A program made the translations under genes and the position numbers. From positions 1 through 39,035 of the IMG/VR virus record IMGVR_UViG_3300037847_002694: a DNA stretch of 39,035 nucleotides; one strand, 5' to 3'. Origin of the DNA: a virus. Of the stretch, positions 28,485 through 33,959 are shown one piece after another. The notes under the pieces were generated by a model. The model saw only the letters and a list, made by a program, of their open reading frames with translations, searched no databases and had not been told where the DNA came from. How positions within the stretch are numbered: the stretch's first letter is position 1; each line of letters opens with the position of its first letter.

Positions 28485-30584
28485 TTAAATCCGCTGTATA
28501 CCCTTGTAGCGCCTAAAAAACTTCTTTTCCGAGAAGTTTGTCAATTCTTTTGGAGCTGCCTTTTGAGCAGCGAGAAGAGCCAATCCAGAAGAAATAGTAA
28601 GGTCAAACTTTGTTCTGTCTGTTATTTTAAAGCCAATCCAGTCCTCTAGAGTTCTATTAAAGTACATTTTACCCATCTCCCCTGTCTCTCTACTTAACCC
28701 TACGTGATTATGTATGTAGGCCTCAATAGATTGTGCATGGGACTGAATGACATCGGCTGAGTTTGATGGTACGCCCTTAGTCCTTACGTTTGAGTTAGAC
28801 CCAGGAACTTTCAGGTGATCTGGACGATCTAAGAGATATCCATCATACCCTCTGTCTTCAAAGTACCTGGCTATCCCATACTTGTTGTTCTCAATAAGAA
28901 GCGGATAACCATAGAAGAAGCAGGCCATCAATACGTCTTCATAAAAGATCTTGGCCAAAGGGGGTCTAGAAGCGTACTCCAAGACAAACATGTTCGATGG
29001 GTGAGACATGTTGAACTTATTGTATAAGTGCAAAGCCCCTTTAGATCCTCTCCCGTCTACAGTAGCGTCAATGTCATAGCTGTCTACGCCACCGCACCCT
29101 ATAAGCTCGTTAGGAGCAATCATCTTCCCATACGATTCTTTCCTTACGTTTCTGAGCTCTTTTGGTGGCAACCAGGCCACTCTAAATCTGCCACTGGCGT
29201 CAGGACGGAACAATACTTCAGTGTCCTTCTGTCCATCCTTCCATACAAAGTTTCCTTTGACTACTGGATCAGGATATAGGTCGTCGTTGTGATCGATCTG
29301 CTCATAGATTTGACCAATATTGAATAGGCTGCCCTCAATACTGTCTCTAAACGCTTCGTCAGTAGTAAACGGGAACTGTCTGATAATCTCATTGAGCTCA
29401 GAAGGCTGGTTTTTGAATGCCTCACGCTCGTTTTTAAGGTACTTCTTACTGCCGATAAGGATGTCTTCTCCATCTATGCCTTCTACTGGCTCCTCAGGGT
29501 CCTGAACTACAGGATTGCCATACTTGTCAAAGAATCCTTCTAGCGCGTCCTGCGCTGGTATAAATAGTCTGTACAGTCCAGATCTAGTCCTCCCATTCGA
29601 ATTCCTCTCCATCGGATCCGAATCCTCCCATAGGTCCTTGTACTCCTTTCCACCTTTGTCCATTGGATTTACGGTGCTTCCGACCATTGCCTTTCCGATT
29701 ATTTTTCGGCCCACGATCAAACATGTCCTCTGAATCCTCCAAGCGTCTCTGATGTCTGTAGGTTTTTCCCATTTTCCCGCCTCGTCGAGGTACAACAGGT
29801 GAAGCTTCTCACCGTCATACGCATTGTTAGTAGTATTTTTCCAGTTTATGACCGTATTCAGCGCATCGCCAACCTGAGCAGTCTTGTTCTTCTTTGTAAT
29901 TTTCTTAGATGGTTCTCTAAACGCCAATTCCATGCGAGGGTTTGTAGTACCGTCCTGGATAGGCTTGAAGAAGAAAGGATAGTGCCTAAACATCTGCACC
30001 ACCTTCTTCATGAATATGTTCTCTTGAGCGTCCTTACCTGTTTTGCTCTGTATTCCGAGTAGTTTATCTTTTACTTGGCTGGCCTCATCGACAAGCACCG
30101 CCGCGCAGATATTTGTGTATCCACTACGACGACACTTCGTGTAAAGCTGACCGATGCAATTCGGGTCTGCCTCACACGCTGCCATGTGCAAAAATATATC
30201 TCTCTGAAAACTAAGGTAGTTAGGATAACCTATGTCGAACTTGGTCCATTGTAAGGCCATATAGTGTCGGCCTGTAATGTATGTAGGATCACCGTTGTTG
30301 TAAAACCAAACGCCATCACGTCTACGCCTAAACTCTTCTTCGATGTATGGACGGAAACGTTCACGGAACTCCCTTGGCATTTCCCCCCACTCATCCATAG
30401 AGCGAACCCTACGCAGTTCTTCTGGCATAGGAATCCTTTCCCACATCTGCAAGTCTTTCTTTTTGTTTGAGAACAAAATTTCTGACTTCTTGGGTTTACG
30501 GGGAAGGCAAATGTGTATGCCACCGATATCGATGACTTCACCCTGTGTACCGTTGGGATCAATGACGATAGCTTCATCCTTCAT
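28485..30584 (-). CDS. terL: Terminase large subunit
   Basis: ATG 30584 overlaps the preceding TGA as ATGA, so it is preferred over an in-frame upstream start; the product is 699 residues. Residues ~148-157, YTKCRRSGYT, occupy the Walker A position but lack a classical GKT/S. The Walker B-like LLYLDEAG is at ~263-270, and VGSTVNP at ~301-307 is a likely coupling motif. The C-terminal nuclease has GGVDSYDID (Asp ~501) and LLIENN (Glu ~565), acidic residues expected for an RNase-H-like site. It cleaves and translocates phage DNA into proheads through the portal, which is encoded next. Confidence 0.85.
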   Translation of the reverse strand: MKDEAIVIDPNGTQGEVIDIGGIHICLPRKPKKSEILFSNKKKDLQMWERIPMPEELRRVRSMDEWGEMPREFRERFRPYIEEEFRRRRDGVWFYNNGDPTYITGRHYMALQWTKFDIGYPNYLSFQRDIFLHMAACEADPNCIGQLYTKCRRSGYTNICAAVLVDEASQVKDKLLGIQSKTGKDAQENIFMKKVVQMFRHYPFFFKPIQDGTTNPRMELAFREPSKKITKKNKTAQVGDALNTVINWKNTTNNAYDGEKLHLLYLDEAGKWEKPTDIRDAWRIQRTCLIVGRKIIGKAMVGSTVNPMDKGGKEYKDLWEDSDPMERNSNGRTRSGLYRLFIPAQDALEGFFDKYGNPVVQDPEEPVEGIDGEDILIGSKKYLKNEREAFKNQPSELNEIIRQFPFTTDEAFRDSIEGSLFNIGQIYEQIDHNDDLYPDPVVKGNFVWKDGQKDTEVLFRPDASGRFRVAWLPPKELRNVRKESYGKMIAPNELIGCGGVDSYDIDATVDGRGSKGALHLYNKFNMSHPSNMFVLEYASRPPLAKIFYEDVLMACFFYGYPLLIENNKYGIARYFEDRGYDGYLLDRPDHLKVPGSNSNVRTKGVPSNSADVIQSHAQSIEAYIHNHVGLSRETGEMGKMYFNRTLEDWIGFKITDRTKFDLTISSGLALLAAQKAAPKELTNFSEKKFFRRYKGIQRI

Positions 30585-31780
30585 CTCACTACGGTAACGT
30601 GGCCATTTACGATATAGGACTCTCCATATCCCTCGCACTCAACCCTATACACGTAAACATCGCTTGGTACATAATACTCTTCACCACCCAGCCAGACTTC
30701 TTCTGGATCAAGGCTTTCCCATATAACATCTCCTGCTCTGGAAATAACTATAAGCCTCCAGGATATCCAGCAGTCAGGATCAGTGACAGCACCCCAGGCG
30801 TCATTTACACCATCATTGTCTGGAGTGAAGGAATTGGGTATGTATATAGAGCAGTCTTCAAAAGGCGTAGAGCAGTACTGACCAGTTGAACAATCAACTT
30901 CTACTATGTCATACTGATACGTATAGAAGGTGTCAGGCGGTAACTCGACATACTCGATTAGAGTGTCGATGATAGTGTTGTACAACGTGTCAGTAACGTA
31001 TATATACGTAGTGTCATAGAAGTACCAGTTAATCGGTACGGGGATTGTGTCGTACTCTACCACTGTGTCTATTTCTAGAACATATATGGTGTCGGGAGGT
31101 AGATCTACATAGACCGTATCGTACACGTAGATGACTTCGGTGACTTCATCAGGGCAAGTTATTATCCAGTTGTCTTGCCAGTTTGAGTCTTCATACAGAC
31201 CACAGCAGTCAGGCGTTATGCCTCCACCAAGGCCCCCGACTTCAGCCCATCCACCGTTGTCAGAGTACATGGTGGGTCCGTAGCTGATCTGCCATATAAC
31301 CGCTTGAATACCAAGACCTTGGTTCATCCAGAACTCAAAGGCGTTGAGCAGGTTGGAGTAAAGGCTGGTGGTCCCAGCTTGATAGAAGTCATCTAGCGGG
31401 AAGGTAATGGTGTCGCCCGTGTAGTACGGAGGATCTACGTTGTAGTCATCCCAAACGTCTAGATTGGTCCAGTTGGTAGAAGAAGTGGTGGTAGTAGCAG
31501 AGTATATCCACCCAGGGTGATTGTTATCGTCAGGGATGCTCAGTCCCCACGGGAAGTCCCACCCCTGATTAAGCGCATTGCAGTTTGAGTCCAGAGCCTG
31601 AAACCCGAACTGAATCTCAGCTATACCTGTCGGACCTGCTACGCCTCCGCAGTTCTCGGTGTTGTTGAACGCAACCGTTATCTCCCCTGCCGCGGGGTCG
31701 AATTCGAGCAGCTCCAAATCGCACTGTCCATTAAGTATCTTAGACAGTATCAAAAGGAGGATCATAATCCAAAACCTCAT
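30581..31780 (-). CDS. Secreted protein with T9SS type B sorting domain
   Basis: A 399-residue protein. Residues 1-19 (MRFWIMILLLILSKILNGQ) form a Sec signal peptide ending in a typical Bacteroidota NGQ cleavage context. Residues ~20-205 are a Trp/Tyr/Asn/Cys-rich ectodomain. At ~215-300, repeated 'DT(I/V)Y / DTLI' units (VYDTVYVDLPPDTIYVLEID) look like a stalk. Residues ~310-399 match the gliding-motility-associated/T9SS type B C-terminal domain: IPNSFTPDNDGVND, then SRAGDVIWES, W-G, VYVYR and GHVTVVR. T9SS CTDs direct Bacteroidota proteins across the outer membrane. The gene lies between a 43-codon gene and terL with ATGA overlaps on both sides. Confidence 0.8.
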   Translation of the reverse strand: MRFWIMILLLILSKILNGQCDLELLEFDPAAGEITVAFNNTENCGGVAGPTGIAEIQFGFQALDSNCNALNQGWDFPWGLSIPDDNNHPGWIYSATTTTSSTNWTNLDVWDDYNVDPPYYTGDTITFPLDDFYQAGTTSLYSNLLNAFEFWMNQGLGIQAVIWQISYGPTMYSDNGGWAEVGGLGGGITPDCCGLYEDSNWQDNWIITCPDEVTEVIYVYDTVYVDLPPDTIYVLEIDTVVEYDTIPVPINWYFYDTTYIYVTDTLYNTIIDTLIEYVELPPDTFYTYQYDIVEVDCSTGQYCSTPFEDCSIYIPNSFTPDNDGVNDAWGAVTDPDCWISWRLIVISRAGDVIWESLDPEEVWLGGEEYYVPSDVYVYRVECEGYGESYIVNGHVTVVR

Positions 31781-31908
31781 CGTCCTTGGCCTTTGTATGG
31801 CTTCTTGTAGTTCTTGGATCTTTTGCTAGAAGACGTTTTAGTCTTAGCATGAACTCCAGGTCTAGAGACCTTGTTCTTTTGCTCGTAGGTGGAAACTGCT
31901 TTTGCCAT
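31777..31908 (-). CDS. Small basic protein, 43 aa
   Basis: ATG 31908 opens 43 codons: MAKAVSTYEQKNKVSRPGVH, then Lys/Ser/Tyr-rich 'KTKTSSSKRSKNYKKPYKGQGR'. The 'KVSRPGVHAKTKTS...SKNYKKxYKGQGR' pattern is familiar from small conserved proteins of aquatic phages with unknown function. The leader TTAAATACA before ATGG is the recurrent start signal here, and the stop overlaps the next gene as ATGA. The gene is real but very short and easily missed. Confidence 0.7.
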   Translation of the reverse strand: MAKAVSTYEQKNKVSRPGVHAKTKTSSSKRSKNYKKPYKGQGR

Positions 31909-32167: not shown

Positions 32168-32458
32168 TTACTTTGAGAAGCGTTCCGCGAACCCACCAGA
32201 ATAATCCTTCTCCTGTTTGATTTCTCCGTCATTTCTCAGATCTTTTGTCATTTGTTCTAGCCTTTGGCGCTCTATAAGTAGTTCTTTGCAATCGAGAGCC
32301 GTTTGCTTAATCGAAGATAGTTCAGCTTTTCGACCCGCTCCATTGAGCTCTGGGTCGACAGGCTTCTTGACTTCTTCAATCATGTTGTTTATGGCTGCCT
32401 CCATACTATCCATAAGTCGGACAGCAGCCTCCAGGGTGGTGAATTTAGACTTCGGCAT
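32168..32458 (-). CDS. Terminase small subunit candidate
   Basis: Starting at ATG 32458 (MPKSKFTTLEAAVRLMDSME) gives 96 residues. The frame stays open for 81 further bases upstream, but that would overlap the GroES-like gene much more. The protein is almost entirely helical: LEAAVRLMDSMEAAINNMIE, then 'GRKAELSSIKQTALDCKELLIERQRLEQM'. A small helical oligomer encoded shortly before terL fits a small terminase, which recognises phage DNA for packaging. Sequence alone does not prove this, and a scaffold-like accessory is possible. It overlaps the preceding gene by 14 nt. Confidence 0.5.
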   Translation of the reverse strand: MPKSKFTTLEAAVRLMDSMEAAINNMIEEVKKPVDPELNGAGRKAELSSIKQTALDCKELLIERQRLEQMTKDLRNDGEIKQEKDYSGGFAERFSK

Positions 32459-33032
32459 AGAGAAGGTCCTCTGCACGCACGCGATAGTACTGTTGATCGT
32501 CAATCGTGATGCGATAGTCCATATTCTTCTTGAACCCAACTATATCTCCCTTCTTAATACCCAGCTCCTCGGTATGTTTTGACTCAAAAGCCAGCTCACC
32601 TCGCATCTTATCCGTCTCTTCGAGTCTAATCACCTCAATAATGGCCTCCGCGACCTCGTCTTCTGGCTCATCATCTACGGGCTTGAGCAAAGTCCAACCC
32701 CCAAGAAGATTGATTTCACCGTCCTTGTTCTTAAACGCTATAGCCTGATTGTTGACTGCGTGTTCTGGATTGTACCTCACCAAGTAGTGATTCTCAAACC
32801 CAGTCAAACCCTGGCCGTCATTCATGACAACCAAGTGATGAAAGTACAGGGTGTCCCCAGGCTCTACACCAGTGTCGTATTTGAATGGGGCGGCCACCAC
32901 TGGACCCTCCGTAACCCTGTGTTCAAACTCATTCCACTTGCTGTCTACGTACAGCTCTAGACCCGACTCAGTCTTAATCGTGTCGTTGATCGTCTTTTCT
33001 AGCTCGACGATAAAAAGATCAAAAGGTTTCAT
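32445..33032 (-). CDS. GroES-like co-chaperonin, two lobes
   Basis: A 195-residue protein. Residues ~1-95 resemble a GroES subunit: an N-terminal strand (PFDLFIVELEKT), a mobile-loop-like TESGLELYVDS, 'EGPVVA', 'VEPGDTLYFHH' and 'FENHYLVRYN'. Residues ~112-195 repeat the layout: 'GWTLLKPVD', 'ELGIKKGDIVGFKKN' and 'QQYYRVRAEDLLYAEV', the last close to the 'EYLIVREDDILA' end of GroES. Phage co-chaperonins (T4 gp31 is the model) help host GroEL fold capsid protein. A tandem two-lobe form would be unusual. It is expressed from the leftward operon just before the packaging genes. Confidence 0.65.
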   Translation of the reverse strand: MKPFDLFIVELEKTINDTIKTESGLELYVDSKWNEFEHRVTEGPVVAAPFKYDTGVEPGDTLYFHHLVVMNDGQGLTGFENHYLVRYNPEHAVNNQAIAFKNKDGEINLLGGWTLLKPVDDEPEDEVAEAIIEVIRLEETDKMRGELAFESKHTEELGIKKGDIVGFKKNMDYRITIDDQQYYRVRAEDLLYAEV

Positions 33033-33268: not shown

Positions 33269-33540
33269 CAGTTCAGGAATACGTCAAACCCACCTAGGTC
33301 TGGACCAGCATCGCCCTTAAAGCTGTCTCTTATGAACTGAAGTATTTCTTCGAGCTCATTCTCGTCGTATATGTTATACCCGTACACAGCTTTTATATAT
33401 TTATCGCCGTCCTCAGTCTCTTCTATCGCACCAGTAAGCATGAGAGAGATAATCTCCTCCCTTTTGCCGTATCTTTCGAGGAGCTGATCCAGCTGAGTGG
33501 CTATATCTGTCAACTCAAGTAGGAATTCTGTCTTTGTCAT
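33268..33540 (-). CDS. Small acidic protein heading the late operon
   Basis: A 90-residue protein (MTKTEFLLELTDIATQLDQL), helical N-terminus then short strands (KYIKAVYGYNIYDENELEEI), acidic overall. It is the first gene of the leftward operon. Its ATG at 33540 lies 19 nt after a TACTTTTG -7 box inside the divergent regulator gene. No family recognised. Its promoter-proximal position in the packaging operon suggests high or early-late expression. Confidence 0.55.
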   Translation of the reverse strand: MTKTEFLLELTDIATQLDQLLERYGKREEIISLMLTGAIEETEDGDKYIKAVYGYNIYDENELEEILQFIRDSFKGDAGPDLGGFDVFLN

Positions 33541-33551
33541 TTGAATTTATT

Positions 33552-33959
33552 ATGAAGAACAAAAGTAAAATGTTCCGTGACGTATCAAAGTTACGTCAGA
33601 AAGACATATCCAAGAATTACTTAAAGAACCTGCGATCCACACTACTGGACTTTCAATCCAAGTACGACATATTCCAAAAGGAAATGTACTTTATGCTGTG
33701 GGCCTACGACCTAGAGTTCTTCACTCTGGACTACGGCGCAAAAGAATATGGTATGACCAAGCAGCATTTGGGGGATAGGATCGTGTACCCACTTATGAAA
33801 GAAGGGTATATACACAAGTACTTTGATAAACTTACCCCGTCACAAAACCTTGAAGACCACCTCTTTAGAGAAGAGACTAAATTCAACTACCGAGTCAGAT
33901 ATGCACTGACGCAGAAAGCAAGGCTTATGATTCAAAGGTTTTACAGGGCTTTAAATTAA
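33552..33959 (+). CDS. Probable winged-helix transcription regulator
   Basis: The only plus-strand gene. ATG 33552 gives 135 residues, and ATG 33570 (MFRDVSK) is an alternative start. The protein is basic with helices 'LRSTLLDFQSKYDIFQKEMYF' and 'FTLDYGAKEYGMTKQHLGDRIVYPLMKEGYIHKYF'. The latter resembles the HTH plus wing of MarR/winged-helix proteins, ending with a basic helix (ALTQKARLMIQRFYRAL). It diverges from the late operon, and the operon's promoter and a palindrome lie within its first ~50 bp. It may therefore repress or activate that promoter, and might also bind its own gene. Its stop overlaps the 44-aa minus-strand gene by 4 bp. Confidence 0.65.
   Translation: MKNKSKMFRDVSKLRQKDISKNYLKNLRSTLLDFQSKYDIFQKEMYFMLWAYDLEFFTLDYGAKEYGMTKQHLGDRIVYPLMKEGYIHKYFDKLTPSQNLEDHLFREETKFNYRVRYALTQKARLMIQRFYRALN
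33560..33589 (-). promoter_or_regulatory. Late-operon promoter TTTG-N18-TACTTTTG
   Basis: On the minus strand, TTTG (33589-33586) and TACTTTTG (33567-33560) are separated by 18 nt, matching the Bacteroidota -33/-7 arrangement. The ATG of the 90-residue gene follows 19 nt after the -7 box. This is the best promoter match in the window and lies wholly inside the divergent regulator's coding sequence. Confidence 0.65.
33578..33598. promoter_or_regulatory. Putative operator: perfect inverted repeat
   Basis: TGACGTA and TACGTCA form 7-bp arms around a 7-bp spacer, TCAAAGT. The spacer contains the -33 TTTG of the leftward promoter on the opposite strand. A dimeric regulator bound here would control the promoter. 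The neighbouring winged-helix gene is the obvious candidate. Confidence 0.6.

Follow-up and report, generated by a model that had tools for sequence, protein, structure and literature searches.

Why would a phage late operon encode, directly before its large terminase gene, a protein that looks like a cargo of the type IX secretion system (T9SS), and what could such a protein do for the phage? The window (the whole stretch of DNA analysed here) is a virus record of 39,035 bases, and the gene in question encodes a protein that we call P399. Our best explanation as a whole, to which we give a probability of roughly 40%, is that P399 is an accessory cell-surface protein that limits adsorption or superinfection. 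The features of the locus are as follows.

30581 to 31780, minus strand: P399 open reading frame (399 aa, ATG start), with a predicted signal peptide, ectodomain, stalk and type B T9SS C-terminal domain (CTD)
31727 to 31780, minus strand: signal peptide, residues 1-18 (MRFWIMILLLILSKILNG), with predicted cleavage before the invariant Gln19 (Bacteroidetes Q-rule)
31163 to 31726, minus strand: ectodomain, residues 19-206, beta-rich and apparently virus-specific
30896 to 31162, minus strand: stalk of DT-x-Y repeats, residues 207-295
30584 to 30844, minus strand: type B T9SS CTD (CHU_C / TIGR04131), residues 313-399
31777 to 31780, minus strand: ATGA in which the stop of the 43-aa gene overlaps the start of P399
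30581 to 30584, minus strand: ATGA in which the stop of P399 overlaps the ATG start of terL
28485 to 30584, minus strand: terminase large subunit (terL), read from ATG (phrog_6681, E 2.5e-210)
31777 to 31908, minus strand: 43-aa basic protein upstream of P399, part of the cargo slot (weak phrog_516)
32168 to 32539, minus strand: P123 (123 aa), upstream border of the P123-terL cargo slot
32445 to 33032, minus strand: GroES-like co-chaperonin, conserved anchor of the locus (phrog_13932, E 8e-46)

The genes on the minus strand run in the order endolysin (phrog_894), GroES-like co-chaperonin, P123, a 79-aa product, the 43-aa product, P399, terL, portal (phrog_6547) and structural genes. The original prediction had identified the large terminase and had tied P399 to both neighbors by ATGA overlaps, and the PHROG match and both overlaps were confirmed when terL is read from the ATG at 30584. 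The mechanical terL reading frame extends to a GTG at 30638, but the ATG should be read as the start, as the alignment to most homologues begins only near residue 18. The overlaps, of which the one with terL also occurs in assemblies made independently, L138 and L177 among them, suggest that translation of P399 is coupled to the late genes instead of being driven from its own promoter and terminator. With regard to the proposed position between the small and large terminase genes, this did not hold, as no small terminase was recognised upstream of P399, where the genes encode the 43-aa, 79-aa, 123-aa and GroES-like proteins. Next to the GroES-like block, the other strand carries a 141-aa ORF (33534-33959, plus strand), and similar opposite-strand ORFs (MPKSKVSKKKLFREFS...) recur in L142, L138, L005, L177, L189 and L221.

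The Sec signal peptide was judged by composition, as a hydrophobic core with a small residue before an invariant Gln. In P399 the core has a mean Kyte-Doolittle value of 3.3 over 9 residues and leads into ILNG, with predicted cleavage before the following QCD; by a simple signal-peptide rule, P399 stands alone among the 34 minus-strand window ORFs of at least 75 aa. Six P399 relatives fail this rule, yet in these the signal peptide is evident on reading. The first mature residues are QCD in 49/50 aligned members (QVV in L028), and the Gln at +1 is invariant across all 50, which corresponds to the Bacteroidetes Q-rule of a Gln after the cleavage site (PMC5837995).

At the other end of the protein, residues 313-384 matched PF13585 with 31.6 bits, above the gathering cut-off of 27, whereas the TIGR04131 match (27.3 bits) stayed below the NCBI curated cut-off of 35 but spanned positions 2-85 of the 85-position profile. 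The profile search proposed for the CTD was therefore passed for PF13585 and missed for TIGR04131, although the latter match covers nearly the full profile. Across the family, PF13585 was matched by 50/50 aligned members (the window's included), and TIGR04131 by 50/50 at E<=0.01, a criterion other than the 35 bits (best 7e-13); among 50 searched records, 18 carried a PF13585 match over the cut-off. The CTD was modelled at a pLDDT of about 73-88, and in the full-length model it resembled 8glk_D, a chain of a NucA-bound T9SS complex (TM 0.61 on target, E 6e-3), alongside other Ig/Fn3 matches. The predicted succession of signal peptide, Trp/Cys-rich ectodomain, stalk and type B CTD was borne out. 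The late region of this phage can accordingly be read as encoding a cargo of the T9SS type B architecture, which is upheld by the signal peptide and CTD kept across the family; the likeness of the CTD model to 8glk_D may point the same way.

It could be argued that the CTD has decayed and that P399 is exported but not displayed, acting instead in the periplasm, for example in lysis. The window's TIGR04131 score below the cut-off would be in line with this, as would the DUF5675 gene that adjoins the P399-like gene in several lineages (e.g., L132). However, the CTD is present in all 50 members and is under purifying selection (dN/dS 0.07 for the CTD and 0.05 for the whole protein, window vs. L003, Nei-Gojobori), and we consider a periplasmic role very unlikely.

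The ectodomain (~190 aa, Trp/Cys-rich and beta-rich) was poorly modelled, as was the stalk, in a first full-length fold that used 20 sequences; refolded with 43 sequences, it reached a pTM of 0.78. This model had no match among solved structures (PDB), including any carbohydrate-binding or adhesin domain, and two matches among predicted viral proteins (BFVD), A0A7S9STS8 (E 1e-8) and A0A516LPX6 (E 5e-31). For most close relatives, ectodomain dN stayed at 0.04-0.14 while silent sites were for the most part saturated, and in L019 the ectodomain was 82% identical to that of P399 vs. 47% for the CTD, which makes it the more conserved part. All that can be read from this conservation is that the task of the ectodomain is fixed. 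The DTxY stalk, for its part, varies in length among relatives, with 3-23 DT units per protein. In four relatives (L019, L020, L023 and L025), an extra domain of ~110 residues with a putative CARDB-like look lies between ectodomain and stalk (about residues 210-310). The ectodomain is missing altogether from L028, which retains a signal peptide near-identical to that of L003 (MKRLIPLFFPLFCSAQ vs. MKRFIPLFFPLLCSAQ) along with a stalk and CTD of the same sort, so the two ends of the protein would act as a sorting frame. L028 keeps a Cys-rich segment, and such a segment follows the ectodomain in L174.

With its strongly conserved, Trp-rich beta domain held on a long stalk of variable length, P399 looks laid out like an adhesin, and the known type B cargoes serve in F. 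johnsoniae as adhesins, gliding or static (PMC12618676). It is conceivable, then, that the displayed ectodomain sticks infected cells to particles, glycans or host cells and so brings about lysis near new hosts. The lack of a structural match to carbohydrate-binding or adhesin domains speaks against this role, which we regard as rather unlikely, if the least improbable of the alternatives to a factor that limits adsorption.

A scan of viral contigs found 25 close relatives of P399, and a scan with the ectodomain alignment found the ectodomain encoded at 136 viral loci; all carriers of the family that were found are metagenomic. Searches of cultured phages by tblastn, with P399 and with the ectodomain of the distant L223 as queries, gave no match to the ectodomain. 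Among 84,980 bacterial and archaeal genomes there was a single ectodomain relative, in a scan built on two short patterns that could miss distant cellular relatives. This relative (L146, WLWP01000006.1) is on a contig of a Pseudomonadales MAG with phage-type GroEL/GroES and tail-fibre genes; the contig looks like a Bacteroidota phage and is probably a mis-binned phage contig. With 136 viral loci and no clear cellular one, the ectodomain is, as far as these sequences indicate, virus-specific.

CHU_C proteins are abundant in Bacteroidota, and P399 might for this reason be taken for a host gene brought in by a chimeric contig or a mis-assembly. This was rejected, given the 136 viral contigs with several phage contexts, the ATGA overlaps with terL in L138 and L177, and the phage-like character of the only match in cellular genomes; we strongly disfavor it and hold it to be extremely improbable. 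Considering that the ectodomain occurs on so many viral contigs and is conserved, that T9SS matches were found in 50/50 members, and that the sole cellular-genome match is phage-like, the architecture is not a product of chance, and export of P399 through the host T9SS is the best reading and, judged from sequence, a very probable one.

A check of related phages for conservation had been proposed. The family keeps its signal peptide and CTD throughout, but the position before terL is not conserved. In L027, whose TerL is 88% identical, the 43-aa gene lies directly before terL and there is no P399. Nor was the suggestion that the linkage to terL is functionally meaningful supported: the P123-terL interval is a variable cargo slot and the P399-like gene is found beside structural or lysis genes elsewhere. 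In relatives this interval ranges from 27 to 5,817 bases; it can be empty, or it can contain GroEL, MazG, HNH-like proteins, putative lipoproteins or a cassette with a sugar-nucleotide epimerase. A CHU_C protein was present in 2/59 intact slots, in a terL-anchored search ranked by TerL similarity that is not a population estimate. In L024 the P399-like gene is followed by a 2OG oxygenase and a Capsule_synth protein, and slot neighbors of this kind (capsule/sugar genes, putative lipoproteins) would be surface-modifying cargo. Sporadic among close relatives and found at differing loci, P399 is by all appearances a mobile accessory (moron-type) gene in a cargo hotspot.

Several other genes were seen at these loci. 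A seven-gene cassette in the P123-terL slot includes sugar-nucleotide epimerase and glycosyltransferase-like proteins (L062:413-5592, L063:2792-7971), and a phage GroEL adjoins the GroES-like gene, either within this slot or immediately before the P399-like gene (L030:6435-7982, L146:3947-5563). Directly upstream of the P399-like gene, L131 (5380-7140) and L174 (911-2953) carry a gene for an M43-type metallopeptidase with a signal peptide, which in L131 ends in a dockerin-like repeat.

The identity of the ectodomain is out of step with that of the terminase: L019 combines an 82% identical ectodomain with a TerL of 20% identity, and L221 a 31% identical ectodomain with a TerL of 74%. Together with the differing loci, this indicates that the gene moves between phage lineages as a unit, and the discordance fits a target common to many phages, not co-evolution with one virion. 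We note that a reading of the L014-L023 group as having unrelated terminases was rejected, as these are distant members of the same PHROG 6681 (20% identity).

The P399-like gene lies between structural genes in L136 and L206, and comes after a giant ORF in L137. Its place amid virion structural genes in the former two could suggest that P399 is a head or tail component and its CTD merely a structural beta domain. However, this place changes from lineage to lineage, close relatives carry the gene only sporadically, and the signal peptide with its invariant Gln at +1 occurs in all aligned members, so that a virion protein is an even less probable reading than a periplasmic one.

A second exported cassette, with a type A CTD, was observed in relatives (L130:10875-15129, L142:8152-13102, L131:8069-12196, L132:16127-19999, L141:9884-14235). 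Its first gene encodes a protein of 740-890 aa with a T9SS type A CTD and GCTDPxAxNYD repeats, followed by a signal-peptide protein of ~350 aa resembling an outer-membrane barrel, and then by a TM/coiled-coil protein of ~94 aa and an exported protein of ~115 aa with a weak thioredoxin match. The barrel-like family is encoded at 264 viral loci and has no convincing Pfam or cultured-phage match; the type A CTD protein was directly upstream of the barrel-like gene in 70/72 checkable copies.

How might P399 reach and act at the cell surface? From its position and overlaps, P399 would be made late, with the head genes. It would then be exported by Sec, and signal peptidase I would cut before Gln19, as its sequence and the Q-rule suggest. 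T9SS CTDs have been described as necessary and sufficient for secretion, and type B cargo needs a PorP/SprF-like shuttle (PMC12618676, PMC9143113). A search of 32 phage records for the gene of such a shuttle (PF11751) gave no match, which implies a shuttle supplied by the host; the host T9SS would take the type B CTD, with the host shuttle receiving it as with 'orphan' type B substrates, which are known without a neighboring PorP/SprF and share shuttles with some crosstalk (PMC12618676). The DTxY stalk would keep the ectodomain at a distance from the outer membrane. Taken jointly, these four steps, from late expression to a stalk-held surface ectodomain, are in our judgment highly likely. Among the hosts of phages with related terminases are Flavobacterium, Cellulophaga, Tenacibaculum and Maribacter, in keeping with a probable T9SS host for the window phage; a search for tRNA genes as a host clue found none.

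In the last step, which we put forward tentatively and from context, the ectodomain may bind or mask some conserved structure of the cell surface and thereby keep superinfecting phages, or newly made progeny of the phage itself, from adsorbing to the infected cell or to its debris. A surface factor that limits adsorption is the best reading because the ectodomain is conserved across phages with different tails and because the slot can carry surface-sugar genes. In Cellulophaga baltica, gliding-motility proteins have been reported to be important for phage adsorption, and the T9SS-secreted SprB and RemA as possible phage receptors (PMC13288928). Nonetheless, late expression would protect just briefly before lysis, which argues against an adsorption block.

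The same reports, together with the crosstalk of PorP/SprF shuttles among type B CTDs and the lack of a phage-encoded shuttle, could also point to P399 as a decoy substrate. Its type B CTD would compete with SprB-type gliding adhesins for the shuttle or the SprA translocon, fewer phage receptors would be shown, and the ectodomain would be secondary. However, a pure decoy would not need an ectodomain, let alone one more conserved than the CTD, and we view this role as distinctly unlikely, though more likely than the periplasmic, virion and host-gene readings. A broader speculation, at rather long odds, is that marine Bacteroidota phages carry an exchangeable T9SS-displayed set (the type B P399 family and a separate type A cargo beside an outer-membrane-like protein) that re-surfaces the infected cell and controls who adsorbs, partly via shuttle competition with host gliding adhesins.

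To return to a surface factor limiting adsorption, P399 has precedents in part, and calling it a new kind of phage-host interface went too far. The Cryophage genomes of Bellas et al. 2020 likewise carry genes with a T9SS sorting domain, namely three type A cargo genes, for which hijack or superinfection exclusion was proposed (PMC7468147). There, however, the type A domains sit on an endoglucanase, a glycoside hydrolase 39 and a PA14 protein and vary between phage variants (PMC7468147), whereas the P399 family has a type B domain and a strongly conserved, apparently virus-specific ectodomain in many phages. Phages of Porphyromonas gingivalis share with P399 the Q-rule exported proteins, with T9SS absent from the main text of that paper (PMC10367356). 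The huge uncultured phages LR745206 and LR756502 encode proteins that end, as P399 does, in a CHU_C-like domain, but with other passenger domains, in genomes over 630 kb and unannotated. Host type B substrates (SprB, orphan F. johnsoniae cargoes) also combine a Sec signal peptide with a C-terminal type B CTD (PMC12618676, PMC9143113); the orphans likewise lack a neighboring PorP/SprF gene, and P399 differs in being phage-encoded. The same ectodomain fold occurs in A0A7S9STS8 of Virus NIOZ-UU157, named 'gliding motility-associated C-terminal domain-containing protein', and in the 90% identical viral protein A0A516LPX6, both of which are deposited sequences only, with no description of the family in the open literature searched. 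That search of the open literature found no report on the P399 family or on a type B domain in phages. A phage-encoded T9SS cargo has thus already been proposed, and is rarely reported; a type B, virus-specific and widespread family is new within the open literature searched.

If our reading is right, a large group of ocean phages displays its own protein on the infected cell via the phylum-specific T9SS of its hosts. The P399 family would then offer natural passenger-CTD chimeras for studying type B sorting, and it would give direct access to the ways in which phages of Bacteroidota control adsorption and superinfection.
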